Positions 4,033 through 63,806 of a stretch of DNA of 63,806 nt are shown here, one piece after another; position 1 is the stretch's first letter; every line of letters begins with the position of its first letter. The position numbers were made by a program, and so were the translations under genes. The DNA is taken from the IMG/VR virus record IMGVR_UViG_3300009136_000004, positions 1-63,806 of that record, one strand, 5' to 3'. Source of the stretch: a virus. The notes beneath the pieces are model-generated. The model ran no database searches. It was not told where the DNA came from and was given only the letters and a program-made list of their open reading frames with translations.

Positions 4033-4033
4033 C

Positions 4034-4401: not shown

Positions 4402-4440
4402 TACCCTGTTCCGTACGCAAGCGACTAATTTTACAGGGTA
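4402..4440. repeat. 8-bp inverted repeat, possible operator
   Basis: TACCCTGT at 4402-4409 and its exact reverse complement ACAGGGTA at 4433-4440 are separated by 23 bases. The arm centres are 31 bp apart, about three helical turns, which suits a dimeric protein or looped pair. It lies about 60 bp upstream of the leftward GTG start. Confidence 0.4.
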
Positions 4441-4466
4441 TTCGCGCGAGTACGACGATGCGATGC

Positions 4467-4488
4467 GAGCACGATACGAGCACGATAC
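4467..4488. repeat. Tandem 11-bp direct repeat GAGCACGATAC
   Basis: Two perfect copies lie head to tail at 4467-4477 and 4478-4488, followed by a partial match. The GATAC core is the reverse complement of the GTATC words further right, so the two clusters may bind the same protein in opposite orientations. Confidence 0.55.
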
Positions 4489-4607
4489 GTGATGCAGGTG
4501 CTTCAGGTGTTTTGCCATTGTTTACGGGGTTAAACTTTGCCGTCTTACCATGCGCGTATGTTATGCCTCTCTATTCAGTACTGCGTACTTCATACTATTA
4601 AGTGAGT

Positions 4608-4670
4608 GTATCATCGTATCACTAGTATCATTGCCCTCTGTAAGTGTATCGACTCTGAAGCAAGCGTATC
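4608..4670. repeat. Cluster of five GTATC words (iteron-like)
   Basis: GTATC occurs at 4608, 4616, 4625, 4646 and 4666, five times in 63 bp, where about 0.06 would be expected on one strand by chance. Two are the longer AGTGTATC and two read GCGTATC or TCGTATC. The last three are spaced about 20-21 bp apart, two helical turns. Confidence 0.5.
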
Positions 4671-4840
4671 GTCCTGTTTGCCGCCTTATATGTGAGGCAT
4701 CCTATGACCCCATTGGAGAGCGGCGCTGCTCCGGTGGTTCCACTCCGCTTCGGTGAGTTCACGGTACTTCCTCCTCGTCGCTGCTAGAGTTCCCGCTGCC
4801 GAACTCGTCGCTCTCCATCTTTGAACAGGGAACTCAATGC

Positions 4841-5500: not shown

Positions 5501-5508
5501 GGAGTCAC

Positions 5509-5628
5509 ATGATGAGAGCATGGAGAAGGTATGGTGCGTCACTACTTGCGTCGGTGACGGTAGAGCCTAGAGCCGCTTCGTGCTCTCTTCAGGTTACTGA
5601 GGCGCAGAAGCAAGGGAGAGAGACATGA
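5509..5628 (+). CDS. Small ORF of 39 residues, function unknown
   Basis: The ORF fills the gap between TerS and the next gene. AGGAG lies four bases before its first ATG, and its stop overlaps the next start as ATGA. The N-terminus is basic then mildly hydrophobic, with a Cys at residue 25, so a short exported or membrane peptide is possible. The evidence is only the ribosome site and the overlap; it could be untranslated leader. Confidence 0.42.
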   Translation: MMRAWRRYGASLLASVTVEPRAASCSLQVTEAQKQGRET

Positions 5629-5849
5629 GACCGAGTATCAAGTTGTTCATTGCGTTCCTTCTGGGACTGGTCGTTGCGATGCTGGTCGTTCCGGCGTTGA
5701 TGCCAGCCGAGGCGAAGGTTGACGTAGAGATATACAAGAACCGCGAGAGCGGAGAGCTGACGTACTGCGAGACAGGGACGCTCGTTGATCCACCGATGGA
5801 GCACATAGGGAGCGGGAAGATAGGCGAAAGCAAGGCTTCCGGCTGTTGA
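5625..5849 (+). CDS. Small exported or membrane-anchored protein
   Basis: The 74-residue product begins with a basic residue and a hydrophobic stretch (about residues 6-26) ending in a signal-peptidase-like ALMPAEA site. A short polar domain with a CETGT segment and a final Cys follow. It may be exported to the periplasm or anchored in the inner membrane. AGGGAGAG precedes the start. It lies in the packaging operon just before the RyR-domain gene; no role can be assigned. Confidence 0.65.
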   Translation: MRPSIKLFIAFLLGLVVAMLVVPALMPAEAKVDVEIYKNRESGELTYCETGTLVDPPMEHIGSGKIGESKASGC

Positions 5850-5869
5850 CAACTGAGAGAGGAAGTACT

Positions 5870-6322
5870 ATGAATGACGCAGCACTAGAACAGAACGAAG
5901 CGGGAGATGAGTTGCCTGGAACGATGGCCGACGAGCAGAAGTTGCCGCCGACGGACAACGAGATAGAGTCCAACGAGATGCTCTGGCTCGTGGCGAAGAC
6001 GTGCCATGAAGTCAACCGAGCGTACTGTGCGGAGGTGACGCTGGATCACACTCACCTTCCATGGGAAGAGACGGCTCCGGAACTGCGAGCGAGCATCTAC
6101 GACGGAGTGGTGAAGCACTTCGAGAACCCCGAGCTGACGCCTGAGCAGTCGCATCAAGCATGGTGTGAGTATAAGGTGGCGGAGGGATGGACTCACGGAA
6201 GTGTGAAGGACGTGGAGGCGAAGACGCATCCGTGTCTGCTCCCGTATCCTCAACTCCATGCACATGAGAGAGCGAAGGACAGTCTGTTCGCCGCAGTGTG
6301 CAAGGCATTGTTCGGAGGCTGA
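5870..6322 (+). CDS. RyR-domain protein
   Basis: I start the gene at 5870 because GAGGAAG is correctly spaced there; the reading from 5846 has no such site. After an acidic, disordered N-terminus of about 45 residues, residues 46-147 match the RyR (ryanodine-receptor-repeat) pattern: NRAYCAEV, a central W-x-E-Y-K segment, then AKTHPCLLPYPQL and the final AKDSLF helix. Phage and bacterial RyR domains are thought to bind ligands, possibly nucleotides or ADP-ribose-type compounds, but their role is not settled. The gene ends one base before the TerL start. A probable ADP-ribosyltransferase lies two genes on. Confidence 0.72.
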   Translation: MNDAALEQNEAGDELPGTMADEQKLPPTDNEIESNEMLWLVAKTCHEVNRAYCAEVTLDHTHLPWEETAPELRASIYDGVVKHFENPELTPEQSHQAWCEYKVAEGWTHGSVKDVEAKTHPCLLPYPQLHAHERAKDSLFAAVCKALFGG

Positions 6323-6323
6323 C

Positions 6324-7898
6324 GTGGCAACGAACCTCGGGCTCCAGCAGTTCTCTGCGTTTGACTACTCCGCCGTGGAGAAGTTAGACCTGGAGAACTT
6401 GCCTCCGGAGCTCGAGGATTACAAGCAGGACCTCCTTCAGTTCACCGAGGAGGAGCTTCACTTCCTGCGCTGGAGAATGATGTGGAAGAGCATGGCACGA
6501 CAGAAGCAACTTCCACCGAAAGAATTTGACGAGTATGTCAAAACGATTTGGGGAGTGCGGAGTGGTAGAGGGTTCGGCAAGACTCTATGCGCTGCGAACT
6601 GGCTCGGGGGCGAGGCAGCAGAACAGCCGGGTTTATTCGCGGTTGTTGCTCCGACGCACGACGACGTTCGCTACACTTGTTTTGAAGGTCCGACAGGTCT
6701 CTACTCCGTAATCCCCTCTTGTCTTATCGCTGACACGAACAGTCAGCTCCCCTCGTGTACCTTGTGGAACGGCTCGTTCATCCGTGGCTTCGCAGGGGAT
6801 ACACCAGAGCGTCTTCGTGGTCCTCAGCATCACAAGGCATGGTGTGACGAGATAGCCTCGTGGAAGTATCCACAGGACGCGTGGGATAACCTCTGGTTCG
6901 GACTCCGCCTCGGCGAGCATCCTCAAGTCCTATGGACCGGGACGCCGAAGCCGACGCCGTTCATGCGCCGACTGAACGCTGACCCGAACAACATTACGAC
7001 CGTCGGTAGTACCTATGAGAACCGCGAGAACCTGACGAAGGTCTTCTTCCAGAACGTGGCGAAGTACGAAGGCACGAAGGTCGGGCGACAGGAACTCTGG
7101 GGTGAGATCCTTGACCCTGAAGAGGAAGGCATAGTCAAGCGCTCACAGTGGCGCATCTGGCCGAACGAGAAGCCTCTGCCGAAGTTCCAGGTCATCATCA
7201 TGTCCATTGACCCATCCTTCAGCGAGAAGCAGCACGACAAGAAGAAGCAGGAGAACGACCCGTCGGCGTGTTCAGTCTGGGGGATGTTCAGTTGGAAGAA
7301 GGAGAGCCACGTCATGCTCCTGGATTGCTGGGAGGACTGGCTTGGACTGCCTGACCTTATAAAGAAGGTGAAGCGCGAGCGTCGCTTGACGTACGGAGAT
7401 GCTGATGAACCGTTGCTCCGGCCGAAGGGAATACGAGCGGGGAACAAGCCGAAGCATCAAGGCAAGCGCATTGACATGATCCTCATTGAAGAGAAGGCGA
7501 GTGGCATCAGTCTGCGTCAGTCTCTAGCGGCGGAGGACGTACTCACTCACGGATACAATCCTGGCAACGCCGACAAGCTCCTGCGTCTACATCTGTCGTC
7601 TCCGATGTGGGCTCATGCGCGTGTCTGGTGTATTGAAGGTGACGCGAAGGACGGCAACCCGAAGACGTACATGGACGGCCTCATCACTCAGGTCTGCTCG
7701 TACATCGGAGAGGGAAGCATTGAGCGTGACGACCTCCTGGACAGTACGACACAAGCGATGCGAGTGTTCATGGATAACTACATCGGTCCGCTCACTATTA
7801 AGAAGGACCCGGTTGAAGAGAAGCGGCAAGCTGCGCGGATGGCAGCAGAGAAGGCGAAGGCAGCAGCGAAGGGAGGAGTGAATCCTTATGACGGTTGA
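6324..7898 (+). CDS. terL: Terminase large subunit (packaging ATPase and nuclease)
   Basis: I start at GTG 6324, with GGAGG five bases before it. The 524-residue protein has Walker A GRGFGKT at 81-87, Walker B AWCDEIASW at 172-180 and the coupling motif TGTP at 205-208. An RNase-H-like nuclease half follows, with Asp296 in SIDPSF, the Glu389/Glu390 pair in IEEKASG and the RDDLLDS acidic cluster at 468-474. It drives genome packaging and cuts DNA at the portal. It overlaps the next gene by 11 bases. The tail is Ala/Lys-rich. Confidence 0.95.
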   Translation: MATNLGLQQFSAFDYSAVEKLDLENLPPELEDYKQDLLQFTEEELHFLRWRMMWKSMARQKQLPPKEFDEYVKTIWGVRSGRGFGKTLCAANWLGGEAAEQPGLFAVVAPTHDDVRYTCFEGPTGLYSVIPSCLIADTNSQLPSCTLWNGSFIRGFAGDTPERLRGPQHHKAWCDEIASWKYPQDAWDNLWFGLRLGEHPQVLWTGTPKPTPFMRRLNADPNNITTVGSTYENRENLTKVFFQNVAKYEGTKVGRQELWGEILDPEEEGIVKRSQWRIWPNEKPLPKFQVIIMSIDPSFSEKQHDKKKQENDPSACSVWGMFSWKKESHVMLLDCWEDWLGLPDLIKKVKRERRLTYGDADEPLLRPKGIRAGNKPKHQGKRIDMILIEEKASGISLRQSLAAEDVLTHGYNPGNADKLLRLHLSSPMWAHARVWCIEGDAKDGNPKTYMDGLITQVCSYIGEGSIERDDLLDSTTQAMRVFMDNYIGPLTIKKDPVEEKRQAARMAAEKAKAAAKGGVNPYDG

Positions 7899-8172
7899 AC
7901 ACCTAGTCTGCCCTGAGTGCGACGATGAGATGGAGGTGGAGCTCCTTGAGTTCTGCGACCAGCATAACACCGTCCTTGATGCGCTGGTCATACAACGAGG
8001 CATGAGGGATGAAGAGCGGAACACTGTGGTTTCTACCATGCTGTTCGGCGTCGTGTCGTTCATGGGTCCTCAGGTGTTCAAGCAGCATGGGAACTGTCCA
8101 GTGTGCGTATTGGAAGGAACCCTGGAGCGAGCGTGTGACGAGGTCACCATGAAGAACAGGAAGATGAACTGA
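7888..8172 (+). CDS. Small protein with two Cys-x-x-Cys pairs, possible zinc-binding
   Basis: The 94-residue product has CPEC near residue 8 and CPVC near residue 70, plus His and Cys between them, which could form one zinc site. The middle is hydrophobic and may be a helix pair. It overlaps TerL by 11 bases and the next gene by one, so it is co-translated with the packaging genes. Function unknown. Confidence 0.7.
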   Translation: MTVEHLVCPECDDEMEVELLEFCDQHNTVLDALVIQRGMRDEERNTVVSTMLFGVVSFMGPQVFKQHGNCPVCVLEGTLERACDEVTMKNRKMN

Positions 8173-8846
8173 TGGCGAAGGCAACGAACCTCGCTCGCTT
8201 CGTACGCTCTGGCGCTCAGCGACAGTCAGCGATGCTCCGGCGTCTGCGGCAACTTCAGCAGGAGTACGTCGGTGACCTGAACCCCGAAGAGCTTGAAGTG
8301 ATCAAGCAGCATCTGGAGGGTCCGTACCAGAGCATGGACTTCGGATACAAGGGTGCGAAGTACGGCACTCCCGCACTCGGTTCGCAGATGGATGAGATCA
8401 TACGCGGAGCGCCACGAGCTGACGAACCGTTCACTACGTTCAGAGGGACCGGAGAAGACTACATGGTTCCGGATGAAGGCTATCCGATCGTGACGAGCTC
8501 CGACGTTGAACAAGCTACGACATACGGCGAAGGATGGGCTGGAATACCTGAAGGGAAGCAGGGTCTGCTCGGCGAGATTGAAGTGCCTGAGCGTTCACCG
8601 TTCCTAGCTATGCCCGACGACGAGTTCTACCAGAAGCTCACGGGTGAGATCCCTCCGTTCGGTGACGAGTCAGAGCTACTGCTACCGAGCAGCAAGCTGA
8701 AGACCCTGGAGCGATACGAACCAGAAGTTATCTACGAGCATTCCACTCGTGGACCAGACGAGAAGGCACTGAAACTGCTCATTGAGAGATACGAATATAA
8801 ACCACCATACAAGGCTCGTGGAGGACTAGTACATGGCAACGCCTGA
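8172..8846 (+). CDS. Probable mono-ADP-ribosyltransferase (R-S-E class)
   Basis: The 224-residue protein follows the order of features of the exotoxin-type ADP-ribosyltransferase fold. FRG has Arg91, the first strand residue that holds NAD. VTSSDVEQATTYG has the Ser-Ser at 109-110, followed by the usual helix. GLLGEIEVP is a core strand, and ESELLLP supplies the ExE pair Glu166/Glu168. Such enzymes move ADP-ribose from NAD to host proteins; T4 packages Alt and makes ModA and ModB for host takeover. Here the gene lies between TerL and portal and overlaps the portal start by 14 bases, so the enzyme may be a virion protein injected with DNA. Sequence similarity is motif-level only. Confidence 0.62.
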   Translation: MAKATNLARFVRSGAQRQSAMLRRLRQLQQEYVGDLNPEELEVIKQHLEGPYQSMDFGYKGAKYGTPALGSQMDEIIRGAPRADEPFTTFRGTGEDYMVPDEGYPIVTSSDVEQATTYGEGWAGIPEGKQGLLGEIEVPERSPFLAMPDDEFYQKLTGEIPPFGDESELLLPSSKLKTLERYEPEVIYEHSTRGPDEKALKLLIERYEYKPPYKARGGLVHGNA

Positions 8847-11382
8847 AGAAGTAATGGAGTTCGATGCACAACCGCAGGACGTCACGGATACTGATGACGG
8901 CGGAGCCATCGTGCAGATCGCCGAGGAAGAAGAGACTGAACAGGTCTACGAGTTCTACGATAACATCGTTGAGCAGTTCCCGGAAGAGCAACTGACGAAG
9001 CTCGCAACGAACCTGAAAGAGAGTATCGAGCGCGACAAGAAGGCTCGGGACCGCAGAGACAAAGAGTACGCCGAAGCCATCAAGCGCACTGGACTCGGTA
9101 AGGAAGCTCCAGGTGGCGCAGAGTTTACAGGTGCGAGCAGAGCAGTTCATCCGATGCTCACCGAGTCTTCGGTGGACTATTCCGCTCGCGCTATCAAGGA
9201 GCTCATGCCTCCGAACGGTCCGGTGAAGAGCTACATACCCGGCGAGAACATAACGCCTGACAGGTTCCAGAAGGCTGACCGCGTCAAGAACTATATGAAT
9301 TGGCAGTTCCTCAAGCAGATGAAGGAGTTCCGTCCTGAGCTTGAGCAACTCTTACCTCAGCTCGCCCTATCGGGTAGTCAGTACATCCGTCTGACACCGG
9401 ACTGGTCAAAGCGTAAGACACGTCCTGTTCCAATGTACGTGCCGCAGGATCAAGTCTATATACCGTATAGCGCGAGCAACTTCTACACGGCTCAACGACA
9501 GACATACGCGGAGCCAATCACGAAGGAAGAGTTTGAAGGTCGCGTGAAGGATGGCATGTACCGCGACATCACTCCGCTCGTCAACTCGCAGATGCCAGAA
9601 GAGAGCGAGGCGCAGAAGGCAACGAACAAGGTAGAAGGGAAGAGCGACAACGACTTCTACAACGAGGACGGGACGCGCATAGTATATGAGGTGAGCGTCA
9701 ACACCGACCTGGAAGATGACGGGATGTCACCGTATCTTATTAGCATCGATCAGCCGACCGACAAGATCGTATCCATCGTACGCAACTGGGAAGAGGAAGA
9801 CGAGTACCAGGAGCGGATGCAATGGATGGTTGAGTTCGGCTTCATTCCTTGGCGCGGAGCGTACTCCATTGGTCTCGGTCAGATGATCGGCTCCTTGTCG
9901 GGTGCAGCGACCGGAGCGCTCCGAGCCCTTTTAGACAGCGCTCATGTGAACAACATACCGACGGCCATCAGGCTGAAGGGTGCGAACTTCATGGGTCAAA
10001 CGAAGACGGAGATCCAGGCGACGCAGATCGCAGAGATAGATGGTGGTGTCGCCGGCGATGACATCCGGAAGCTGCTCATGCCGTTGCCGTTCAATCCTCC
10101 GTCTCCTGTGCTGTTCCAACTGCTCGGCTTCTGCGTTGACGCAGGACGCGGAGTGGTTCGTACGACGTTCGAGCAACTGAGCGACGCGAACCCGAACATG
10201 CCAGTCGGTACGACCCTCGCCATGATTGAAGAGGGAATGCAGGTGATGAGCGCCATCCATCTGCGCACGTACCACTCGATGACTATGGTCATTGAGATTC
10301 TGTACCGCATCAACAAGATGTACCTGACGGACGAAGAGGTTGCTGATGAGCTCGGCGAGTTCCTTGCGTACCGATCTGACTTTGAAGGTCCGATGGACGT
10401 CGTGCCTACTGCTGACCCACAAGTCTTCAGTGATGTGCAGCGCCTCGCGCAGCTTCAGATCGTTGCAGACAGAGCAGCCGCGTTCCCGCAACTCTACAAC
10501 CAGAGGATCGTGGAGAAGAGGCTGCTCGAGCGCAGCAAGATACCGAACGCTGAGGAGCTACTGATACCGGAAGACAAGCCGGAGAACGCGAACGCAGTCA
10601 ATGAGAACGCACAGATGGCGCTCAGGCGTCCGGTCACTGCGTTCCCTGAGCAAGAACATCTAGCTCATCTCCAGGTTCACTTGGACTTCCTGCTCAGTAA
10701 GGAGTTCGGGCAGAACATGGCGATCGCACCGATGCTGATGCCACCTATGATTGAGCATCTGAAAGAACATATGGTTCTCTGGTACGTGAACACGAACTAC
10801 GAACTGCTCATGGAAGCAACGGAGTCGGATGATCAAGGTATGGCAGAGATCATGCAGGACCAAGACCCAGAGACACGCAAGGAACTGGACAGGGTACTCG
10901 CAGCAGGTAGTCCGATGGTCATGGAGCGAAGTAGTGAGGTACTCTCTTCGCTTCCGGAGATCATACAACAGACTATCCAGGCGATGCAGCAGTTCCAGCA
11001 GAAGGCTCCGGAGATGCCGGTGGATCCGAACCAGATGGCAGAGATCCAGCGTCGGACTGAAGACGACAAGATGAAGGATGCCACCAGAAGAGAAGAACTG
11101 GCTGGCAAGAAGGAGATTGAGTTCTCCAAACTTTCCGCGGACGAGCGAGAGCAAGCAGTGTCGGCAGCGCAAGAGGAAGCAATGCAAGCTCAGAAGAGGG
11201 CTGCTCGGCTCGAAGAGCTTATGCTTACAGAGCGCGCCGAAGACGAACGCATCGCTACCAAGTTGGCATCAGACGAGCGCAGAAACACTCAGGACAACCT
11301 GACGGCGCTTCAGATAACGGCAGCGGAATTGGAAGCTGGCAACGAAACGAATCTAGAGACCGGAACGGGTATAAATCCTTGA
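8833..11382 (+). CDS. Portal protein
   Basis: The 849-residue protein has a portal-type N-terminal half with GGAEFTGASRAVHPM, YSARAIKELMPP and LSGSQYIRLTPDW. Its last 170 or so residues form a long acidic/basic coiled coil. It forms the dodecameric ring through which DNA enters and leaves, and it anchors terminase and the tail adaptors. The length fits the large portals of podoviruses rather than siphovirus types. It starts 14 bases inside the ADP-ribosyltransferase gene with a GGAGG site. Confidence 0.85.
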   Translation: MATPEEVMEFDAQPQDVTDTDDGGAIVQIAEEEETEQVYEFYDNIVEQFPEEQLTKLATNLKESIERDKKARDRRDKEYAEAIKRTGLGKEAPGGAEFTGASRAVHPMLTESSVDYSARAIKELMPPNGPVKSYIPGENITPDRFQKADRVKNYMNWQFLKQMKEFRPELEQLLPQLALSGSQYIRLTPDWSKRKTRPVPMYVPQDQVYIPYSASNFYTAQRQTYAEPITKEEFEGRVKDGMYRDITPLVNSQMPEESEAQKATNKVEGKSDNDFYNEDGTRIVYEVSVNTDLEDDGMSPYLISIDQPTDKIVSIVRNWEEEDEYQERMQWMVEFGFIPWRGAYSIGLGQMIGSLSGAATGALRALLDSAHVNNIPTAIRLKGANFMGQTKTEIQATQIAEIDGGVAGDDIRKLLMPLPFNPPSPVLFQLLGFCVDAGRGVVRTTFEQLSDANPNMPVGTTLAMIEEGMQVMSAIHLRTYHSMTMVIEILYRINKMYLTDEEVADELGEFLAYRSDFEGPMDVVPTADPQVFSDVQRLAQLQIVADRAAAFPQLYNQRIVEKRLLERSKIPNAEELLIPEDKPENANAVNENAQMALRRPVTAFPEQEHLAHLQVHLDFLLSKEFGQNMAIAPMLMPPMIEHLKEHMVLWYVNTNYELLMEATESDDQGMAEIMQDQDPETRKELDRVLAAGSPMVMERSSEVLSSLPEIIQQTIQAMQQFQQKAPEMPVDPNQMAEIQRRTEDDKMKDATRREELAGKKEIEFSKLSADEREQAVSAAQEEAMQAQKRAARLEELMLTERAEDERIATKLASDERRNTQDNLTALQITAAELEAGNETNLETGTGINP

Positions 11383-11459
11383 GGATCAAACATCACTCCC
11401 TCGGCACTACTAGGTCATCGAATCAAGTCAGTATTTTTGAAGGCAATTAGGAGAAGAAA

Positions 11460-11624
11460 ATGAGTTATGTCAGACAGCACTATAACCTCGCCACGACAGG
11501 CAAGCTCGGCCAGAAAGCGTCTGGCAAAGCTGCGCAGTCAAGCGCGAAAAAGCCATCTCATTCCGGTGGATCCATGAAGAAGAGTGGGTCGTACGGATCA
11601 CACGGATCGCAGCGAAAAGGCTGA
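11460..11624 (+). CDS. Small Gly/Ser/Lys-rich protein of 54 residues
   Basis: The ORF begins at ATG 11460 directly after AGGAGAAG and is isolated from its neighbours by short gaps. The sequence is low-complexity, with Lys, Gly, Ser and His, and no recognisable fold. A strong ribosome site and a place in the capsid operon suggest a small virion-associated or DNA-binding peptide. The 77 bases before it hold nothing I can identify. Confidence 0.6.
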   Translation: MSYVRQHYNLATTGKLGQKASGKAAQSSAKKPSHSGGSMKKSGSYGSHGSQRKG

Positions 11625-11651
11625 TTGCCCTCGCGCGTATAAAGGTGTAGG

Positions 11652-11849
11652 ATGCAGATTGAACTAGAACTCTACCTGAGAAAGCTCAAGGATATGCAGA
11701 CCGAGTATGCCGATGCTTCACTCCGACAACCGAACGAGAAGACTGCGTTTGGATACGGACAAGTATCGGGGCAGTATCAAGGTCTGTTACTCGCCGAGCA
11801 GTTGTTGAACAACGTGATTGAGGAAGTAGCAAATGACGCAGACAAGTAA
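11652..11849 (+). CDS. Small conserved virion-operon protein, 65 residues
   Basis: The product is mostly helical, with heptad-like leucines (LELYLRKLKDMQ and YQGLLLAEQLLNNVIEE). It lies immediately before the GroES-like gene, which starts inside its last 17 bases. Small helical proteins at this site often serve head assembly, but no specific family is recognised. Confidence 0.65.
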   Translation: MQIELELYLRKLKDMQTEYADASLRQPNEKTAFGYGQVSGQYQGLLLAEQLLNNVIEEVANDADK

Positions 11850-12303
11850 ACTTTCGCTGGCTGATGCTGGTGCAGAACAGCGTACGAAGGCTCCAAGCCT
11901 TGCGTATGAATCTATCGATCAAGCCTTTCCAGAGGTTGATCCAGGCCTCAAGCCGTTCGGGAGTCGGATACTGGTACAAATCCGAACACCGATGAAAGTG
12001 ACACGAGGCGGGATTATCGTTCCAGAAGAATCCCGTGATACTGAGATGTGGAACACTCAGATATCTAAAGTCATCTCGCTAGGACCAGTCGCGTATCGCG
12101 ATCGAGATACCCTTGAACTCTGGCCGGAGGGCGAGTGGGTCAAACCCGGAGCTTTCGTGCGATGCCCTAAGTATGGCGGCGATCGCTGGGAAGTTCCGGT
12201 TCCCAACTCGCAAGACGCAGCACTATTCGTTCTCTTCAACGACATGGAATTGAATGGTGAAATTACCGGCGACCCGTTGGACATGGTTGCCTTTTTGAAG
12301 TAA
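11833..12303 (+). CDS. GroES/Cpn10-like co-chaperonin
   Basis: The 156-residue protein contains the Cpn10 barrel pattern: KPFGSRILVQI at 40-50, followed by the mobile-loop region around TRGGIIVPEES (58-67), then the ISKVISLGP strand and a closing VKPGAFVRC. About 35 residues precede the domain and the roof loop is enlarged, as in T4 gp31. It would cap host GroEL so that the capsid protein can fold. The gene lies two genes before the putative scaffold and 2.3 kb before the major capsid gene, which fits that job. Confidence 0.75.
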   Translation: MTQTSKLSLADAGAEQRTKAPSLAYESIDQAFPEVDPGLKPFGSRILVQIRTPMKVTRGGIIVPEESRDTEMWNTQISKVISLGPVAYRDRDTLELWPEGEWVKPGAFVRCPKYGGDRWEVPVPNSQDAALFVLFNDMELNGEITGDPLDMVAFLK

Positions 12304-12327
12304 CAGTAGACTGAAGGAGTCTAGAAA

Positions 12328-13326
12328 ATGTCAACAGAAGAAAAAGACGACGACCTGGTCATGGTCGGCGATGGAGTCGAAGAGGGCGAACAGCAAGTTG
12401 CTTCGCCTACAGACGACGATGAGAACCTGGATGCACTGGATGACGGTGATGATGGAGCGGGTGGTGACGACACTCGAGTTGGTGGTGGTGAGCAGGTTGA
12501 CGATGACCGTACTGAAGCTCGTAAGACAGAGCGCAAGACGCGTCGTCAACGGCAGAAGGATGCAAGGGATCGTGATCAGCGCGAGCTAGGCTTCCTTCGT
12601 ACTCGCAACGAACAGCTTGAGAAGAATTACTCCGACCTCAATCGGCGGGTGACTGCCAATGAAACATCACAGATTGACGGGCGCATCAACCAGTTGGACA
12701 ACGCGATACGAAGCGCGGACGATGTCTACGCGAAGGCTATCAGCGCCGGAGAGGGAGATGATGCAGCAGAAGCTCAGCGCATCCGTGATTCCTTGAAGGA
12801 ACAGCGTGATGGACTGCGAGCATACAAGGAACAAGGCGGCTCAGCTCCACCAGAGCAGCAAGGTCCTGACCCCGTTCTCGTTGAGCATGTGCGTACATGG
12901 CACGAGCGAAACAACTGGTTTGACTTCGGTCGTCGTGATGAGGACTCTGCAATCGTTGGAGCTATTGACGATATGATGGTCCGAGACGGCTGGGATCCGC
13001 GGACACCTGAGTACTATGATGAGTTGGACAATCGCGTTGCGCGTCGTCTGCCTCATCTAGCCCAGAAGGGTGGAAGAGGGAATGGTGCTGGCGATGACCA
13101 TGATGATGATCGTGGTGATGATAGAGGAAGTCAGCGAACTGCAAGAGGACCTAAGTTCCGCGTCGGTGGAAGAGAGCGTCCTCTGAAGAGTAATGAGGTC
13201 CACATTAGCCGCGAGCGCCGCGAGGCGATGGAAGAGGCAGGAGTGTGGGATGATCCGGTACTGCGTAAGAACTACCTGAAGAGATACGCAGATTGGGACC
13301 GCGAACACGCAAACGAAAATGCGTAG
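12328..13326 (+). CDS. Putative capsid scaffolding protein
   Basis: The 332-residue protein is very acidic for 60 residues, then has a basic RKTERKTRRQRQKDARDRDQ-type patch, a long coiled coil, and a basic C-terminal region ending in a helix. This charge pattern, and the position just upstream of the capsid genes, matches podovirus scaffolds that line the prohead and leave before DNA entry. No sequence family is certain. A strong ribosome site (AAGGAGTC) precedes the ATG. Confidence 0.65.
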   Translation: MSTEEKDDDLVMVGDGVEEGEQQVASPTDDDENLDALDDGDDGAGGDDTRVGGGEQVDDDRTEARKTERKTRRQRQKDARDRDQRELGFLRTRNEQLEKNYSDLNRRVTANETSQIDGRINQLDNAIRSADDVYAKAISAGEGDDAAEAQRIRDSLKEQRDGLRAYKEQGGSAPPEQQGPDPVLVEHVRTWHERNNWFDFGRRDEDSAIVGAIDDMMVRDGWDPRTPEYYDELDNRVARRLPHLAQKGGRGNGAGDDHDDDRGDDRGSQRTARGPKFRVGGRERPLKSNEVHISRERREAMEEAGVWDDPVLRKNYLKRYADWDREHANENA

Positions 13327-13353
13327 CAACTCACTGAATGAGAGGGTGTAACA

Positions 13354-13956
13354 ATGGTTGACAAGAAAGTAGGTAAGACGAGCGCGAGACGGAAGAAAGC
13401 TCCGAGTAAAGCACGGAAGAATAGGGCGGACAGTAATCGTATGTCTGCCAATCAAGAGCGAGTGCTGTCAGACGACGAGCGGTTGGACGAGTTTCGCAAA
13501 TCATTTTTCCAGTCAGTATTACCCGACTTACCACCAATCGAAGGGTATCATGTCTGCTGGCTCACAACTACGAATCCCAGAGATTCTATAGCAGGTCGAG
13601 TGCGTCTAGGTTACTCGCCAATCAAATCGGATGACATTCCCGGGTGGGAACATGCGACTATGAAAGGCGGCGAGTACGTTGGATGTATCGGGGTGAACGA
13701 GATGATCGCATTCAAGCTTCCGATGCATCTCTACGAAGCCTATATGCGTGAAGCGCATCACACTCAACCTCTGTACGAAGAACAGAAGCTCAGCTCTGTC
13801 ATTGACGTTATCCGAGAGGAAGCGGCAGCGGCAGCGAAGAGTGGAGCTCGCGGGATTAAGTTTGAGCTAGAGGAAGGCATGGCTGAACTGGGACAGGACC
13901 TAGATCCTGGCTCTTTCGCCGAGAACCTCGGTGAAGTGGAGAACCAGGAATACTAG
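13354..13956 (+). CDS. Hypothetical head-region protein with basic N-terminus
   Basis: The 200-residue product starts with a 30-residue Lys/Arg tail. A compact alpha/beta-looking domain follows (YHVCWLTTTNPRDSIAGRVR, then GGEYVGCIGVNEM), then an acidic helical end. It lies between the scaffold and a structural gene and is likely a head accessory protein. The CWLTTTNPRDS segment looks well conserved, but I cannot name a family. Confidence 0.65.
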   Translation: MVDKKVGKTSARRKKAPSKARKNRADSNRMSANQERVLSDDERLDEFRKSFFQSVLPDLPPIEGYHVCWLTTTNPRDSIAGRVRLGYSPIKSDDIPGWEHATMKGGEYVGCIGVNEMIAFKLPMHLYEAYMREAHHTQPLYEEQKLSSVIDVIREEAAAAAKSGARGIKFELEEGMAELGQDLDPGSFAENLGEVENQEY

Positions 13957-13984
13957 GAATGAGTATTTCTGATAGGAGTTTTTC

Positions 13985-14551
13985 ATGTCACAATTAGCTG
14001 CTCCGTTCGGACTGCGACCTTCGTATTCGCCCTCTGGGTGTATACGTCCGGGTCCGCTCGTGGGGATCGCTTCAGGTGCTGCGTTTGATATCTTTCAAAA
14101 CAGTCCTGTCGCGCTCGATACGAACGGTAACTTGGTACTCCCTGCTCCTGGCGCTCGTGCCATCGGTACTTTCCAAGGCGTCGAGTATGACGATCTTGAA
14201 AGCCGTTTTCGAGTCGCTAACAGGTGGGTAGCAAACACCCTCGCAACGAACATTCGCGCGTACTACATCGCGGCACAGGATACCGTTGTCTATGAGATTC
14301 AAGCGAACGCAACACTGACGGCTGCTGCCATCGGTGATCAGTTCGACTGGACCGCAATCACAGGCAACGCGACGACTGGGCTGTCGAGTGTCGCACTCAA
14401 CGTCGCTTCCGCGGCTGGTCCTGGCGGCAACGCTGGTCTGAGAGTGGTCGGGTTGAACCCCGGTCCCGATAATGAGTGGGGCGATCCGTTCCCAGTTGTT
14501 CTCGTTCAAATCTCTGAGCATCAGTTCGTCGCTGATCGCGTCGCAATCTAA
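13985..14551 (+). CDS. Probable capsid decoration or minor head protein
   Basis: The 188-residue protein is beta-rich, with many small residues and few charges. It opens with AAPFGLRPSYSPSG, a start common in phage structural proteins encoded just ahead of the capsid gene. It ends 12 bases before the major capsid start, with an AGGAGG site between. A decoration or cement protein is the best guess; the fold is not identified. Confidence 0.6.
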   Translation: MSQLAAPFGLRPSYSPSGCIRPGPLVGIASGAAFDIFQNSPVALDTNGNLVLPAPGARAIGTFQGVEYDDLESRFRVANRWVANTLATNIRAYYIAAQDTVVYEIQANATLTAAAIGDQFDWTAITGNATTGLSSVALNVASAAGPGGNAGLRVVGLNPGPDNEWGDPFPVVLVQISEHQFVADRVAI

Positions 14552-14563
14552 GGAGGATAAGTT

Positions 14564-15478
14564 ATGGCTGTCCCAATGAGGTCAACGGACTTTCGGTCCG
14601 TCGTAGAGCCTATCCTTAACGAAGTTTTCGATGGGATCTACAACCAACGTGCTGACGAATGGAAGGGATGTTTCAACGAACGTCCTGGCATCGCTCGGTC
14701 TTACCATGAAGAGCCGGTCCTCTATGGATTCGGTGCTGCGCCGGAGTTGCCTGATGGCCTCCCGGTCACGTACCAGTCCGGTGGAGTACTCTTCATTCAG
14801 CGTTACGTCTATCGCGTATACGGTCTCGCCTTCGCCCTGACGAAAGTCTTGGTAGAGGACGGCGATCATATCAAGATCGGCACGATCTACGCTGAGCATC
14901 TCGCTCAGTCCATGATCGAAACGAAAGAGACGCTTTGCGCCAACATCTTCAATCGTGCCTTTAATGGTGCGTTCCCTGGAGGTGACGGTGTGTCTCTCAA
15001 CAACGCTGCTCATCCGATTGCTAACGGTACGTTCAGCAATTTGCTCACGACTGCTGCTGCTCTTTCGCAGACGTCACTTGAGCAGATGCTGATTCAGATC
15101 CGCAACGCAGTCGATAACAACGGCAAGCGTATCCGTCTCACGCCGAAGAAGATTGTTGCAGGTCCATCGCAGATCTTCCAGGCGGAGGTACTGCTGAAGA
15201 GCGTACTTCGAGCCGGTACTGCCAACAACGACATCAACCCGATCAAGTCCATGGGTCTGTTGAGCGACGGGCAAGCAAGTCTTTCCCGCATCACCTCGAC
15301 GACTGCATGGTGGGTCGGTACGGATGCTCCGCGTGGTTTGCAGTTGCTCACACGTCGCAAGATGGAGAAGTCAATGGAAGGCGACTTCGAAACTGACTCC
15401 ATGCGTTACAAGTCGACTGAGCGCTACATCCCGGGTTGGACGGATCCTCGTGGTGTCTACGGTACACCGGGTCTCTAA
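14564..15478 (+). CDS. Major capsid protein
   Basis: The 304-residue protein lies after the scaffold and decoration genes, has a strong AGGAGG site and is followed by a perfect intrinsic terminator, the usual mark of the most abundant virion gene. The sequence has a helical spine-like region (LAQSMIETKETLCANIFNRAF), a central beta/alpha domain (KKIVAGPSQIFQAEVLL) and a terminal segment (TDSMRYKSTERY) resembling HK97-fold capsids of this size. The family call rests mainly on context. Confidence 0.75.
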   Translation: MAVPMRSTDFRSVVEPILNEVFDGIYNQRADEWKGCFNERPGIARSYHEEPVLYGFGAAPELPDGLPVTYQSGGVLFIQRYVYRVYGLAFALTKVLVEDGDHIKIGTIYAEHLAQSMIETKETLCANIFNRAFNGAFPGGDGVSLNNAAHPIANGTFSNLLTTAAALSQTSLEQMLIQIRNAVDNNGKRIRLTPKKIVAGPSQIFQAEVLLKSVLRAGTANNDINPIKSMGLLSDGQASLSRITSTTAWWVGTDAPRGLQLLTRRKMEKSMEGDFETDSMRYKSTERYIPGWTDPRGVYGTPGL

Positions 15479-45892: not shown

Positions 45893-46204
45893 TTATTGGT
45901 CGACATATGCCGACGTTGCTTCGCCTTCAGTCTCGGTCACTTCCACTAGCGTCAGCAGTGCATAGGCGACAAGATCTTCCAGCGAGTCCTTCCCTTCTTC
46001 AAGCTCAATCGTTGACTTGAATAGGTCGTACTGGAACTGCGACGCGCCATGTTCAACGCGACTATACTTGCGATGCAGATTGAAGAACGCACTGAAGCCT
46101 CCGTGGTCTTTCCAGCTTGACCCGTATGCCTCGTCCTTCTTTATGATCGTCTGCACGATCTCGTCAGCTATCTGCTGAAGCCGTTCCTTCTCATGTGGTT
46201 GCAC
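45893..46204 (-). CDS. DUF1599 / Nmad1-like nucleotide-modification-associated protein
   Basis: GTG start at 46204 with GGAGGAAG upstream. The 103-residue all-helical product fits the DUF1599 pattern: KKDEAYGSSWKDHGG (23-37), then FFNLHRKYSRVEH and a final DSLEDLVAYALLTLVEV helix. Related proteins are found in loci that modify nucleotides or DNA bases and resemble MazG-like nucleotide-binding folds. It is the last gene of the modification cassette and overlaps the thymidylate-synthase-like gene by 14 bases. Confidence 0.68.
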   Translation of the reverse strand: MQPHEKERLQQIADEIVQTIIKKDEAYGSSWKDHGGFSAFFNLHRKYSRVEHGASQFQYDLFKSTIELEEGKDSLEDLVAYALLTLVEVTETEGEATSAYVDQ

Positions 46205-47198
46205 GATGCTTCCTCCTCATCATCCACTGCGTACAGGCAAGAGCCCAGTCCGGCGACGCGATGTTCTTGCACAGATGCAGCGCAGTCTCAATGTCGCCTC
46301 GTTTGTAACATCTCCACGCATCCCTCATCGGGTACGCTGTCCGGCCGAAGAATAGATCCTGATACATTATAGGGTCATCCCAGTCGTCCTTGAAGAACCG
46401 CTCCAGGTCAGCATCCCATGCGTCGGTCGTTCCGTTGACAATGGCAGCGGAGGCAATACGGCTCGGCGTGTATCCGTGACCAGCATAATAATCCTGCTCG
46501 CCGTATGCTGCTCCCATGTTCAACTTCTTCCAGGTCGGGTTCTCAAGATAGTAGTGCCACGAATCACTGATGTGATAGTAGAGGCCGATGTCGTACCCGC
46601 TCTTCCGTGCCATGTACTCCTGGAGAACACTGAAGTGAACAGCGTTCGCACCGTAGCATCCCCAGATGATGTCGTTGCTGCGGCAACAGACCGTCATGTT
46701 CAACTTCCCATTGCGCACCTTGAAGTAGACGTGCGTATTGCATGGGATGTCACGTCGATCAGCGCCGAGGTCAGCAGCCGGGTTCCACATTGATATCACT
46801 GCCCGACGCGTGTCAGGCTTCCGTCGCAGAAGGTTCGCTGCGGTTTCAATCTGGTCAACGCCACTGCGCCACCTGAACCCGTATGCTCCATGGAACTTAC
46901 CGTCATCTTCTGCGAACTGTCCGATGTTCTTACTGAATTGGCTGATCCATGCTGAGTCGTCGCGTCCTGCCAACATCCACAAGGCTTCCATCAAGTGGAA
47001 GAACGGGTTCGCATCGCGCACGTCGCAGAAGAGTACTCTCCTCCAGGGTTTGCGGTAGATGGTAGTCACCGGCTCATCGTACTCCCGCGTGACCTTCCCT
47101 TCTCGTGGCGCTATCTCATGCCAGTTGTCATCGTGCAGCATGATGTGAGCCGCCTTTCGAAAGGCTGAGTTCACGTTGTCTGCGTCTATTACTATCAT
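46191..47198 (-). CDS. Thymidylate-synthase-like enzyme, candidate dUMP hydroxymethylase
   Basis: The 335-residue protein has the thymidylate-synthase frame: RDANPFFHLMEALWMLAG (61-78), GAYGFRWR, the phosphate-binding DTRRAVISMWNP with Arg131/Arg132, catalytic Cys153 in IPCNTHVYF, RSNDIIWGCYGAN (173-185) and SDSWHYY at 211-217. The usual His after the catalytic Cys is Asn, and the GVPFN loop is changed to GCYGAN but keeps Asn, which favours a dUMP substrate. Homologues in phages with hypermodified thymine make 5-hydroxymethyl-dUMP. The next genes upstream support that reading; ordinary dTMP synthesis remains possible. Confidence 0.8.
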   Translation of the reverse strand: MIVIDADNVNSAFRKAAHIMLHDDNWHEIAPREGKVTREYDEPVTTIYRKPWRRVLFCDVRDANPFFHLMEALWMLAGRDDSAWISQFSKNIGQFAEDDGKFHGAYGFRWRSGVDQIETAANLLRRKPDTRRAVISMWNPAADLGADRRDIPCNTHVYFKVRNGKLNMTVCCRSNDIIWGCYGANAVHFSVLQEYMARKSGYDIGLYYHISDSWHYYLENPTWKKLNMGAAYGEQDYYAGHGYTPSRIASAAIVNGTTDAWDADLERFFKDDWDDPIMYQDLFFGRTAYPMRDAWRCYKRGDIETALHLCKNIASPDWALACTQWMMRRKHRATT

Positions 47199-48061
47199 TG
47201 CTGTCTCCTATACTTTGCTCGAGGTCTGCCCTCATTCTTATGTACGCGCATCCACTTATCGAACTCACACATTGAATGCTCAACTTCACGCATCTCCAGG
47301 GGAGGGACGTGTTTGCCCAGATACTTCCTGGACGTCTTCAGTATCTCTTGCATGAACTCAACGTATGGTCCTGTCCCTTTGAACGCATTCTTCTTCGGAG
47401 CGTTGTTGATGATGCGGTTGATGCCGCGTCTTGCTCCAGGTCCAAGGTTCGCCCACTTCTTCTTGTCGGGTGCTTTATCCAGCATCCCCTTCTGATACCT
47501 CATGTCACAGATAACTTCGTACGCAGTGAACGGACCTTGCATTGGATACGCCGATAGGATCTTCGTGCATCCTTCCATCGTGCCATCCTTCTGCATCGCT
47601 TCCCAGATACGCTTCCGGCCGCGCCAGTGAACAGCCATCGCGTCAGACATCAAGTCTATCTTGGGTACGGACTGACCAGCGTTCGTGATGATGTATGCGC
47701 CAGTGAAGATCTTAGTACCCTTGTCCGCGTTCCGATGCAAGATGCGCTTCATCTTCTTGGCGACGTGATGCGTATCCTTCCCACGAGTCAGCAGGTCATA
47801 CGTCCCCTGGAGATTGAACGCACGATAGAGGATCATGTGATAGAGCTTATCGTACGGCATCACGTCCAACAAGTCAATCCGTTCATGGAACCGAATGGTC
47901 TCAGCGTCAAGCTCGCGGAATACGTTGGTGAACTTGTACTCCTGCATGATCTTGTCTTTGGTCCACGGCCACTCCTCTTCAGCTTCTTTGTTCAGGTAGA
48001 TCTGATGCCGTTCATTGATCCACCAATAGAACTTCCTCAGCCTGTCTGCTGCCGATCTCAT
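47195..48061 (-). CDS. 5-hmdU DNA kinase helical-domain / amino-acid:DNA-transferase-like protein
   Basis: The 288-residue helical protein shows the pattern of this hypermodification family: FYWWINERHQIYL (11-23), PWTKDKIMQEYKFTNVFRE (32-50), FTGAYII near 119, FTAYEVICDMRYQ (178-190) and a helix-hairpin-helix WANLGPGARRG (203-213). Members are fused to, or encoded next to, a P-loop kinase that phosphorylates 5-hydroxymethyluracil in DNA, or they replace that phosphate with an amino group. Here the kinase is the neighbouring gene, with a 4-base overlap. I cannot decide between the kinase-helper and transferase clades. Confidence 0.72.
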   Translation of the reverse strand: MRSAADRLRKFYWWINERHQIYLNKEAEEEWPWTKDKIMQEYKFTNVFRELDAETIRFHERIDLLDVMPYDKLYHMILYRAFNLQGTYDLLTRGKDTHHVAKKMKRILHRNADKGTKIFTGAYIITNAGQSVPKIDLMSDAMAVHWRGRKRIWEAMQKDGTMEGCTKILSAYPMQGPFTAYEVICDMRYQKGMLDKAPDKKKWANLGPGARRGINRIINNAPKKNAFKGTGPYVEFMQEILKTSRKYLGKHVPPLEMREVEHSMCEFDKWMRVHKNEGRPRAKYRRQQ

Positions 48062-48609
48062 AACTTGTTCTCCCAGAGCAGATGCGTCAACTCCTTGACC
48101 GCGTTCTTGTGGTCCAGTACGACGGGGTTCGCCTTGTCGTGTACCTGACGCTGAAGGAACCGCAGATTGGCGAAGAATAGCTTCTCTGTGTTCTCAGGGT
48201 TGAACGGCTTCGTGTTCCCTGCTTGCTTCCTGCGCTTCCGCACTCTGGCGAGGCACGTTGTCAACGGTGTATCCAGCGTCGCGAATGCGAACGCCTGATT
48301 CATACGACGGTGGTGCGCTAGGTTCTTCGCGTACCCGTTGCCGATGGTCAGTCCCTCATAGATCACGTGACCCTGCTTGCAGAACTTGGTGATACGTCGA
48401 CGCGTCTCGTCTTGCGTCTTGATCGTATCGCATCCACCGCAGACGTTGTCGTAACGACCGATGACGTAGATGGGGTCAGCCCAATGAATCAAGACTGCCA
48501 GCACCTTCCCACTTCGGTCGGTCACATCCTCATGCGTATACTTCTCCATGAGCTCGCGGATGATAGTGGTCTTTCCGGCTCCACTCGTTCCTCTGATGTT
48601 TACAATCAT
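48058..48609 (-). CDS. P-loop kinase, probable 5-hmdU (DNA) kinase
   Basis: The 183-residue protein has Walker A GTSGAGKTT at 7-15, a GRYDN-GGCDTIKTQDETRRR region near 51-71 that looks like the nucleoside/DNA-binding part, and an Arg-rich lid (RVRKRRK near 122-128). It lies between the helical-domain gene and the Nmad-like gene with 4-base overlaps on both sides. In hypermodified phages a P-loop kinase phosphorylates 5-hydroxymethyl-dU in DNA before the final substitution. A nucleotide kinase is the alternative. Confidence 0.75.
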   Translation of the reverse strand: MIVNIRGTSGAGKTTIIRELMEKYTHEDVTDRSGKVLAVLIHWADPIYVIGRYDNVCGGCDTIKTQDETRRRITKFCKQGHVIYEGLTIGNGYAKNLAHHRRMNQAFAFATLDTPLTTCLARVRKRRKQAGNTKPFNPENTEKLFFANLRFLQRQVHDKANPVVLDHKNAVKELTHLLWENKL

Positions 48610-49268
48610 ACTCTTTTGATCCCCTCTTTTAGATCTCTGATGAGTCCTTTGTATCCACTCCGATGGAGCGGTCTGGTTGCTACGAAGACAGGCTTCCTGA
48701 ACAGATGCACGTTGTCAAACAGAAACGTCGCAGGTCTGCGTCCACCTTTCTCGTACTTGATATCCCGATGCCACTTGGGAGCGTTGTACTTCTTGTCATG
48801 TTCCATTCGGGTGTGACCGTATGGAGTTCGATAGTGCTTCGGGTTGTACTTCGTCTTGTCACTGAGATTGTGCAGCGGCGTATAGATATCGCCGAACGGG
48901 TTATCAACCGCAAGCTTCGCCTCCCATGCCTCCGGGTGATTGTCCATGAGGTAGTTGCCGAGGTCGTAGTTACTGTCGAAGACGTAAGCGATCCGCGCCA
49001 GATACAGCAGATAGCTGTCTCCGCATCCTACCTTCGGCGTGAATCCAGCGAGCCACGTATGAAGCCAGTCGACGTTCGCTGCTCTCATAAAGTGCTTGCA
49101 CGTTGTCAAGGTAAGAAGTCCGCCTTGCCAGTTCGGTCCGGAGCGCGTCTGGTTGAAGATGCCATCCTCCAGGTAGATCTGATGCTGCGGATATGTGCGA
49201 ACGATGCCGCCTTCAGGTGCGTTGATGGTTCTCCTCTGACGCCATCCCTTGAATGATTGATGGTCCAT
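48606..49268 (-). CDS. Nmad-like (nucleotide modification associated domain) protein
   Basis: The 220-residue product resembles the Nmad2/Nmad3 type: GPNWQGGLLTLTTCKHFMR (44-62), WLAGFTPK (72-79), YLLYLARI (86-93) and NPFGDIYTPL (123-132), then an FRKPVFVATRPLHR end. The Cys/Lys after LTLTT is the hallmark. The family is found beside thymidylate-synthase-like and kinase genes in modified phages; its chemistry is unsettled. It is first in the cassette, with GGAGGAAG before the ATG and a strong terminator just upstream. Confidence 0.62.
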   Translation of the reverse strand: MDHQSFKGWRQRRTINAPEGGIVRTYPQHQIYLEDGIFNQTRSGPNWQGGLLTLTTCKHFMRAANVDWLHTWLAGFTPKVGCGDSYLLYLARIAYVFDSNYDLGNYLMDNHPEAWEAKLAVDNPFGDIYTPLHNLSDKTKYNPKHYRTPYGHTRMEHDKKYNAPKWHRDIKYEKGGRRPATFLFDNVHLFRKPVFVATRPLHRSGYKGLIRDLKEGIKRV

Positions 49269-62012: not shown

Positions 62013-62430
62013 GCTCTGTCTCCTCGCACGTTGCTGCCTCCGTCATTCGGTGGCTCCATTCTACTAGGCTCATCACACTGGTGTCGGCGAGCAAGTTGCC
62101 AGTCTGCGTCAGGTGGCAAGCAAGCAGTTCATCCAGCGCTCGGTGAAGCTTCAGGTGACGCATCCGGTTCGGCTCATGCTTGAACTTGTAATCGTTGTCG
62201 TTCATCATGCTGCATGTGAAGTCAAAGAGTTTCTGTGCGCTTTCTTCCGCGTCACCCTGGAACTCCAGCTTCCCACCCTCAGTCCAACGTAGCTCGCCGA
62301 TCTTTTCGTTGTCCGGGTTGCTGAACGTGATGTTAAAGATTGGCGGGTCAACCTTGAGGAACGTAAGTATCTCCTCTGCCGTCTCTTCCGCCTTCTGCTC
62401 TATACGATCTTCGTGGTTGCTGTCTTCCAT
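61999..62430 (-). CDS. Conserved phage protein, 143 residues (complete copy)
   Basis: Acidic N-terminal helix, then a beta segment (PIFNITFSNPDNEKIGELRW, then LEFQGDAEESAQKLFDF) found in many phage proteins of unknown role, then a basic helix and an acidic tail. Its 5' part is the same gene as the partial copy at 1-221. It overlaps the sulfotransferase by 31 bases. Confidence 0.72.
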   Translation of the reverse strand: MEDSNHEDRIEQKAEETAEEILTFLKVDPPIFNITFSNPDNEKIGELRWTEGGKLEFQGDAEESAQKLFDFTCSMMNDNDYKFKHEPNRMRHLKLHRALDELLACHLTQTGNLLADTSVMSLVEWSHRMTEAATCEETEHDEE

Positions 62431-62990
62431 AGCTCTATGTCCTCTGCGTAGTAAGTTTCAAGTTCCTCCAGGCGATACGTCACCTCAGGCTTCTGTTCAT
62501 ACGTCTTGTTCTCGTGTGGCAATCTGTATCCATAGAAGCCTTCGTTCCCTTCCAGGCGAAGCCAGATAGGGTTCTTGCACCCTGAGTAGAGTTCGCTCTG
62601 CCGTTGCCATGCGTAAGCATGAGCGCTGTTCCCTATCTGTTCGGTGAAGAACTCCCCGGCTTCATCGTCAAGCACTGCGTCCACCGTTGCTTCAAAGGTC
62701 GGGCGACCAACCGTTTTGAAGTTGGTCACTGGATCCCTGGAGTTGACGCCATCTGAGAGCAGCATGTACGCAGACGCGAGCCGCTTGATAGGATCACGTA
62801 TGATGCACACTGCTTCCTCCGGTGCTTCCTTCAGGTCCATGGCAAGCTCACCCATCCGTTCCGCAAAGAAGTAGAGAGACGTACTCCCTGACCTCGGTGC
62901 TGCTGCGATGTTGAACCTGTCATCCACCCTGTAGTACTGCGGGATATAGAACCCGTTGATGCAAGGCGGAGCGTCTCTCTCTACGTTCAT
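62400..62990 (-). CDS. Sulfotransferase-family protein, allele 2
   Basis: Same length (196 residues) and motifs as allele 1: PRSGSTSL at 32-39 and RDPIKRLASAY at 65-75. Changes cluster at residues 79-84, 98-118 and 155-163, away from the PAPS site. Residues in these loops may touch the acceptor, so the alleles could act on different substrates. It overlaps the cupin-like gene by 4 bases. Confidence 0.78.
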   Translation of the reverse strand: MNVERDAPPCINGFYIPQYYRVDDRFNIAAAPRSGSTSLYFFAERMGELAMDLKEAPEEAVCIIRDPIKRLASAYMLLSDGVNSRDPVTNFKTVGRPTFEATVDAVLDDEAGEFFTEQIGNSAHAYAWQRQSELYSGCKNPIWLRLEGNEGFYGYRLPHENKTYEQKPEVTYRLEELETYYAEDIELWKTATTKIV

Positions 62991-63562
62991 GCTTCTTTCC
63001 TCTCTGTCCTGTTGTAGTTAGTCCACTCTCGGTGGGGAATGCAGGTGTCTGCGTCCGGCCAGAAACTCCAGTTGTGCTTCAGCGGTCCAGTCATAATGAT
63101 GGTGCTGAACGGCTTCCGTGGCTCGTGTACGAAGTGACGGTGAGACGCACGACGGAAGTGGAACCTCCATCCGCGGACCACTCGGCTGTTCAGTCTGCCG
63201 TCCGGCGTCATCACCGTCTCAGTGTAACTACGGAACGGGAAGGTGATGAACCACCACGGATGATCGTGCGGCGCTGCCTCCTCGTCTCCCTGATGGAAGG
63301 TATGGAACCTGAAGTTGATGGGACCGAGCCAGAGCATACGTCTGTCCAGGTAGAGGCGATACCACTGACCGTCATGCTCCATCACTTCGTTCGCGGCCAT
63401 CTCTATCTCTGCACAGAACACGATGTTCGCCGCCTCCTCCGCAGTGATAGGGAACCAGACCTGATCGTGGATGTAACCCCATCGGCGGCGATACGTTCCC
63501 TTCGGCCAGTCACCGACCAGTTCAACGTGACTCTTACGCTTCGCGGATAACGCTGCCATCAC
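62987..63562 (-). CDS. Cupin-like metal-binding protein, allele 2
   Basis: The 191-residue version keeps HDHPWWF and SHRHFVH, but residues 39-67 (29 residues with EEAANIVFCAEIEMAANEVM) replace the 24 unrelated residues of allele 1. The flanks are nearly the same. This looks like a swapped segment rather than gradual drift. Confidence 0.55.
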   Translation of the reverse strand: MMAALSAKRKSHVELVGDWPKGTYRRRWGYIHDQVWFPITAEEAANIVFCAEIEMAANEVMEHDGQWYRLYLDRRMLWLGPINFRFHTFHQGDEEAAPHDHPWWFITFPFRSYTETVMTPDGRLNSRVVRGWRFHFRRASHRHFVHEPRKPFSTIIMTGPLKHNWSFWPDADTCIPHREWTNYNRTERKEA

Positions 63563-63806
63563 GCACCTCCAGTCGGTTCAGTTCTACTAGGTAGCGCACG
63601 AGTCCGGGGATATCCTTGTCGTTGATGTACGGTGTCACGTACCCGCTCCACTCATACAAGTGAACGAAGGTCTGTATGACGATGCCGTCCTTGTCTTCCA
63701 CCTTGACACGGTATCCCTCCGGGTTGAAGCTCTGTTCAAACTCAATAGCGCAGTCATCCCACGTCAGCTCGCCGTACTGCGTGAGCTTCGGCTTCTCATA
63801 CGGCTT
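63534..63806 (-). CDS. HAD-like protein, C-terminal part only (cut by the right edge)
   Basis: The last 90 or so codons of the HAD-superfamily gene, identical by eye to 1310-1582. The catalytic motifs lie beyond the window edge and are in the complete copy at 1310-2044. Confidence 0.8.
   Translation of the reverse strand, partial: KPYEKPKLTQYGELTWDDCAIEFEQSFNPEGYRVKVEDKDGIVIQTFVHLYEWSGYVTPYINDKDIPGLVRYLVELNRLEVRDGSVIREA

Follow-up and report, generated by a model that had tools for sequence, protein, structure and literature searches.

To our knowledge, the kinase-type thymine hypermodifications described so far proceed from a phosphorylated base to groups derived from amino acids or polyamines. 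The DNA of Pseudomonas phage M6 contains hypermodified thymidine. The steps of 5-hydroxymethyl-dUMP (5-hmdUMP) formation, its incorporation into DNA and its phosphorylation are believed to be common to M6, ViI and phiW-14 (PMC6449724). In phages of the M6 and PaMx11 type, the transferase ADDT then puts an amino acid in place of the phosphate. In phage SN1, the kinase and the helical protein have separate genes (PMC9476957), and pelagiphages carrying a thymidylate synthase (TS), the helical protein aG/PT-PPlase1 and a putative glucosyltransferase are also already known (PMC9599517).

The DNA analyzed here is the 63,806-base IMG/VR phage record IMGVR_UViG_3300009136_000004, considered over its whole length and called the window below. 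It carries a minus-strand cassette of five genes at positions 45893-49268 (Table 1), which overlap by 4, 4, 4 and 14 bases (4 between orfE and the kinase gene), just as the initial annotation had reported for five leftward genes with overlaps of 4-14 bases. A sister phage (L007, identical to G001) carries all five with the same arrangement and at 68-80% amino acid identity, dN values of 0.13-0.19 and dS values of 0.9-1.5 indicating purifying selection. As gene order is conserved and dN lies far below dS, these reading frames are genes and not chance ORFs. The first 1,582 bases of the window match its last 1,597 at 91.7% identity, so that the contig ends overlap, and its terminal genes lie next to each other in the sister phage. 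The genome is thus near-complete at approximately 62.2 kb, and gene absences therefore carry meaning.

Table 1. Genes of the cassette, with predicted functions.
Gene	Positions	Strand	Description
orfE	48606-49268	minus	220 aa; candidate finishing or accessory protein for phosphorylated base; directly upstream of the kinase gene
P-loop 5-hmdU DNA kinase	48058-48609	minus	183 aa; PF18748 HMUDK_HMUD1
HMUDK_hel (aG/PT-PPlase1) helical protein	47195-48061	minus	288 aa; PF18723
Thymidylate-synthase-like pyrimidine (dUMP) hydroxymethylase	46191-47198	minus	335 aa; PF00303, phrog_5131
orfA	45893-46204	minus	103 aa; small, tied to Nmad1/DUF1599 via intermediates

The earlier proposal that these genes form a thymine hypermodification cassette is supported, with the kinase, the helical protein and the TS-like protein falling in the predicted families. 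In a Pfam search of the five proteins, Thymidylat_synt, HMUDK_hel and HMUDK_HMUD1 were matched above cut-off, whereas orfE gave a sub-threshold Nmad2 match and orfA none. We consider it probable, though well short of certain, that thymine is hypermodified in this phage via 5-hydroxymethyldeoxyuridine (5-hmdU) and without amino acid transfer, the route ending either at 5-phosphomethyl-dU (5-PmdU) or at an orfE-dependent adduct; the individual steps are assigned from protein families.

The TS-like character of the fourth gene product is borne out by its matches to PF00303 (2e-22) and phrog_5131 (1.7e-99). It scores below all NCBIfam thymidylate synthase equivalog cut-offs (90 bits versus 174.55 for TIGR03283), and when its family profile was compared with the PDB the nearest entries were CMP 5-hydroxymethylases (1e-31), the best thymidylate synthase following at 1e-19. 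The protein shares 39-40% identity with gp58 of M6 and retains the catalytic cysteine. The base-reading residue of the TS family is Asn in enzymes acting on dUMP and Asp in those acting on CMP, and Asn is found at this position here. By family, this protein is a predicted dUMP hydroxymethylase rather than a thymidylate synthase.

The P-loop kinase identified by the initial annotation matches HMUDK_HMUD1 above cut-off (4e-8, 33.4 bits versus 27). It carries the Walker A motif GTSGAGKTT, shows 33-37% identity to the kinases of Ab18- and PaMx11-type phages, and matches M6 gp54 in a phmmer search. Division of the kinase between two adjacent proteins had been regarded as a peculiarity of this locus. 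This view does not hold, as the kinase and the helical protein often have a gene each (M6 gp54/gp55, PaMx11, Sonora, Pam3 and SN1); since M6, PaMx11, Sonora and Pam3 share this layout, the arrangement is ordinary. The TS-like, kinase and helical proteins of the window match M6 gp58, gp54 and gp55 one-to-one, and among cultured phages the closest kinase and helical proteins are of the PaMx11 kind (32-37% identity).

The helical protein had been described as helical or amino-acid:DNA-transferase-like. The first part of this description stands, as HMUDK_hel is matched at 1.1e-48; the second does not, as a search with the ADDT family PF18724 was empty, and we rejected the assignment of this gene as an ADDT. 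The protein does contain the GPGARRG motif noted earlier, of which the G, P, G, the second R and the final G are invariant in 60 homologues. An AlphaFold2 model (pLDDT 94) strongly matches the helical proteins of the viral 5-hmdU kinases of SP10, phiW-14 and phiRSL1, and its sole high-probability match in the PDB is 8z2n, the 5-PmdU glycinyltransferase of PaMx11 (probability 0.99, TM approximately 0.45, Foldseek E 0.13). In addition, a remote profile relation to ADDT was detected (E 6.5e-4).

The distribution of this helical family is wider than its name suggests. In a first survey, 69 of 88 HMUDK_hel loci were without a detected kinase; most of these kinase-less loci contained a TS-like gene (64/69), and a TAGT-like or other glycosyltransferase was present in 51/69. 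At least 13 switches between kinase and glycosyltransferase contexts are required on the HMUDK_hel tree, where the nearest relative of the window and L007 proteins, L011, has the same surrounding genes and a TAGT glycosyltransferase (5e-17), and lacks both the kinase and orfE. Because HMUDK_hel is found in kinase and glycosyltransferase cassettes alike, it is a partner that commonly accompanies the hydroxymethylase, and it may present the base to the transferase of the respective cassette. The reading of this family, named as a kinase domain, should change accordingly to that of a hydroxymethylase partner shared by both kinds of cassette.

What sets the locus apart is what it lacks. No match to PF18724 was found in the window up to E 10, whereas the same search was strongly positive in M6, PaMx11 and Sonora, which served as positive controls. 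Likewise, no counterpart of known ADDTs was found in the window by phmmer, known cassette enzymes matching the kinase, helical and TS-like proteins only, and a broad ADDT profile applied to the window at maximum sensitivity returned noise only. An ADDT hidden elsewhere in the genome was thus not found at high sensitivity by these three approaches, and the sister phage also lacks the gene. Moreover, phmmer searches of all six frames of the window with the M6 and PaMx11 PLP enzyme, radical SAM enzyme, FAD enzyme and acetyltransferase gave nothing at E <= 0.1. The initial annotation had noted that PLP, radical SAM and acyltransferase genes are missing nearby, which extends for these homologues to the entire window; as judged from these searches, the decisive absence is that of ADDT, which had not been singled out. 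Its expectation that the final product may be unlike those already described is supported. A sulfotransferase, a cassette member in L013 and L014, was considered and rejected: the weakly supported sulfotransferase-like gene of this genome lies approximately 15 kb away in another block.

ADDT lies near the kinase in most of the kinase clusters surveyed. Among 50 HMUDK_hel-bearing virus records, ADDT was above cut-off in 9 of the 13 labelled as having a kinase, versus 0/37 of the others. When 95 kinase loci were grouped into 39 clusters, 28 clusters had ADDT in the locus and two had orfE; the other nine, which include some short fragments, had neither gene. ADDT often lies directly upstream of the kinase (e.g., L113, L128 and L168), and in none of the 39 clusters do ADDT and orfE co-occur. 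This mutual exclusion is suggestive and not more, since 11/39 clusters lack ADDT and the chance of such a pattern for two clusters is thus approximately 7%. Some kinase-hel-TS cassettes lack both ADDT and orfE (L047, L116, L171 and the L154/L160/L178 group, in records of 25-63 kb), and for those ADDT-less kinase phages that were checked over their entire records, some of which are incomplete, ADDT was absent there as well.

The one gene singled out by this transferase-less cassette is orfE. Its homologues in L007 (72% identity) and L104 (44%) both lie directly upstream of the kinase. L104 has the same SNF2-orfE-kinase-hel-TS order as the window and also lacks ADDT, and its helical protein belongs to a different major clade of the HMUDK_hel tree. 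No homologue of orfE was found in cultured phages, bacterial genomes or the PDB, and the protein matched no family above threshold and no recognized catalytic family; a fold model built from a two-sequence alignment reached a pLDDT of 31. The Nmad-like label given to it earlier finds weak backing in matches to Nmad2 (PF18753) that share the same register in two of the three members, but the scores lie under the cut-off of 26.1 bits (12.2 bits, E 0.13, for the window and 13.4 for L104, with no match for L007). Nmad2 was not detected in 50 related records, and an approximate Nmad2-like query sequence gave no match; orfE would at best be a very remote Nmad2 relative. Purifying selection and a position beside the kinase in two HMUDK_hel lineages suggest that orfE acts in connection with the kinase step.

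At the other end of the cassette, orfA had been labelled DUF1599/Nmad1-like. It has no direct Pfam match, DUF1599/Nmad1 (PF07659) included; the label is sustained through phrog_1485 (4e-9) and through the family member L032, which matches both phrog_1485 and DUF1599 (8.8e-12). Members of the orfA family adjoin, or lie near, a TS gene in about 60 loci.

In the pathway that we propose from these family assignments, the TS-like enzyme would convert dUMP to 5-hmdUMP, which would replace T in DNA, in part or entirely, and the P-loop kinase together with the helical protein would then convert 5-hmdU in DNA to 5-PmdU. This genome has no ADDT to exchange the phosphate for an amino acid. Instead, orfE, placed in the upstream slot often held by ADDT, would most likely act on or bind 5-PmdU, the finished base being either an orfE-dependent adduct or 5-PmdU. 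Our confidence that orfE catalyzes the finishing step is low; that it is the first recognized member of an enzyme family acting on 5-PmdU in DNA in place of the amino acid transferase, yielding an undescribed thymine adduct, we hold to be a little less likely still. If 5-PmdU were the finished base, its charged phosphomethyl group would be protective and orfE would have an accessory role, as a reader, regulator or DNA-binding protein. We regard this as rather unlikely, although those kinase-hel-TS cassettes that lack both ADDT and orfE speak for it; they indicate that the kinase may need neither partner, and 5-PmdU may also be the end product there. In addition, orfE resembles only Nmad2, a modification-gene-associated domain of unknown function. 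Against this weigh the selective constraint on orfE and its kinase-adjacent place in both lineages, as well as the presence of a transferase in most kinase cassettes.

It is improbable that an ordinary amino acid adduct is formed by the helical protein, whose structure is distantly related to that of ADDT, or by an unrecognized protein. The profile relation and the fold match to 8z2n described above would fit such a role, but M6 and others keep both genes, so that the helical protein is no substitute for ADDT in these phages. Besides, the same family occurs in kinase-less glycosyltransferase cassettes, with repeated switching between contexts, and the helical protein of the window is sister to a TAGT-associated one. 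It is more improbable by far that the cassette belongs to ordinary nucleotide metabolism, with a thymidylate synthase and a nucleotide kinase serving unmodified DNA. TS and P-loop folds are indeed common to enzymes of the dTMP pathway, and weak thymidylate kinase matches were also seen for the cassette in the Pfam search; however, the best matches are to the modification families HMUDK_hel and HMUDK_HMUD1, the TS-like profile is nearer to hydroxymethylases than to thymidylate synthases, and the trio equals that of phages with hypermodified T. The 5-hmdU route without amino acid transfer remains our preferred reading. From a conserved kinase cassette devoid of a transferase, one would predict that modification ends at a base bearing phosphate or that 5-PmdU undergoes a second chemistry. 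As orfE, an uncharacterized gene, occupies this slot in two distinct lineages of phages, the base finally formed may be new.

Compared with known systems, the cassette resembles that of M6 (Yuavirus, NC_007809, gp51-gp58), where the genes for TS (gp58), the kinase (gp54) and the helical protein (gp55) are separate, neighbouring and near polA. Unlike the window, M6 has ADDT (gp51), a PLP enzyme (gp52), a radical SAM enzyme (gp53) and Nmad5 (gp56), in whose stead the window has orfE and orfA. Pseudomonas phage PaMx11 has the same kinase-hel-TS order, but also ADDT (gp46, the glycinyltransferase solved as 8z2n), an FAD enzyme and an acetyltransferase, all of them missing from the window. Sonora and Pam3 are built like M6, with separate kinase and helical genes, but with other tailoring genes. 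The 5-hmdU DNA kinase of Bacillus phage SP10 (F8WQ30) shares the helical fold of the window protein (TM 0.77 by query) and is annotated as one protein of 637 aa that includes this fold, while the window has two genes. Finally, the cassettes combining HMUDK_hel, TS and a glycosyltransferase (L011 and the pelagiphages of PMC9599517) use the same helical and TS families as the window, L011 having a TAGT glycosyltransferase and neither the kinase nor orfE.

The minus-strand gene at the left end of the window encodes a protein with a PRSGSTSL motif, which we tentatively call sulfotransferase-like: its homologue (69%) in the sister phage G001 has a weak Sulfotransfer_2 match (E 0.12). Comparison of the window with the genomes G001 and G002 found no counterpart in G002. 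The HAD-like phosphatase that follows the neighbouring cupin gene is a relative of phage polynucleotide kinases.

A second copy of the sulfotransferase-like gene lies near the right end, where positions 62210-63806 overlap 1-1582 over about 1.6 kb at 91.7% identity, including one 300-base stretch that is 100% identical. This overlap reflects either a circular assembly with mixed strains or a tandem duplication in which the two copies of the sulfotransferase-like and cupin genes have diverged.

Features of the window and of cassettes in other viruses
Feature	Positions	Strand	Details
Sulfotransferase-like protein	194-781; copy 2, 62403-62990	- (both)	PRSGSTSL motif
Cysteine-dioxygenase-like cupin, then HAD-like phosphatase	781-2044	-	cupin: phrog_4786, 2.5e-22
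L013 hel-TS cassette	9986-14688		inserts: glycosyltransferase, sulfotransferase-like, SPASM radical SAM genes
L014 hel-TS cassette	3302-9595		inserts: glycosyltransferase-like, TAGT, nucleotidyltransferase-like, sulfotransferase genes

Sulfotransferase-like genes also occur within cassettes pairing HMUDK_hel (hel) and thymidylate-synthase-like (TS) genes at both virus loci L013 and L014; these cassettes possibly specify sugar-based thymine hypermodifications. Two further loci, L142 (876-2765) and L149, are fragments carrying a 5-hmdU-kinase-like gene without hel or TS, directly followed in L142 by a radical-SAM-looking gene.

Both PHROGs and the phage records of RefSeq widely label 5-hmdU DNA kinases 'terminase small subunit'; the label, which looks like a propagated misannotation, is carried by phrog_800 and by the kinases of the cultured Pseudomonas phages M6 (gp54) and PaMx11 (gp49).
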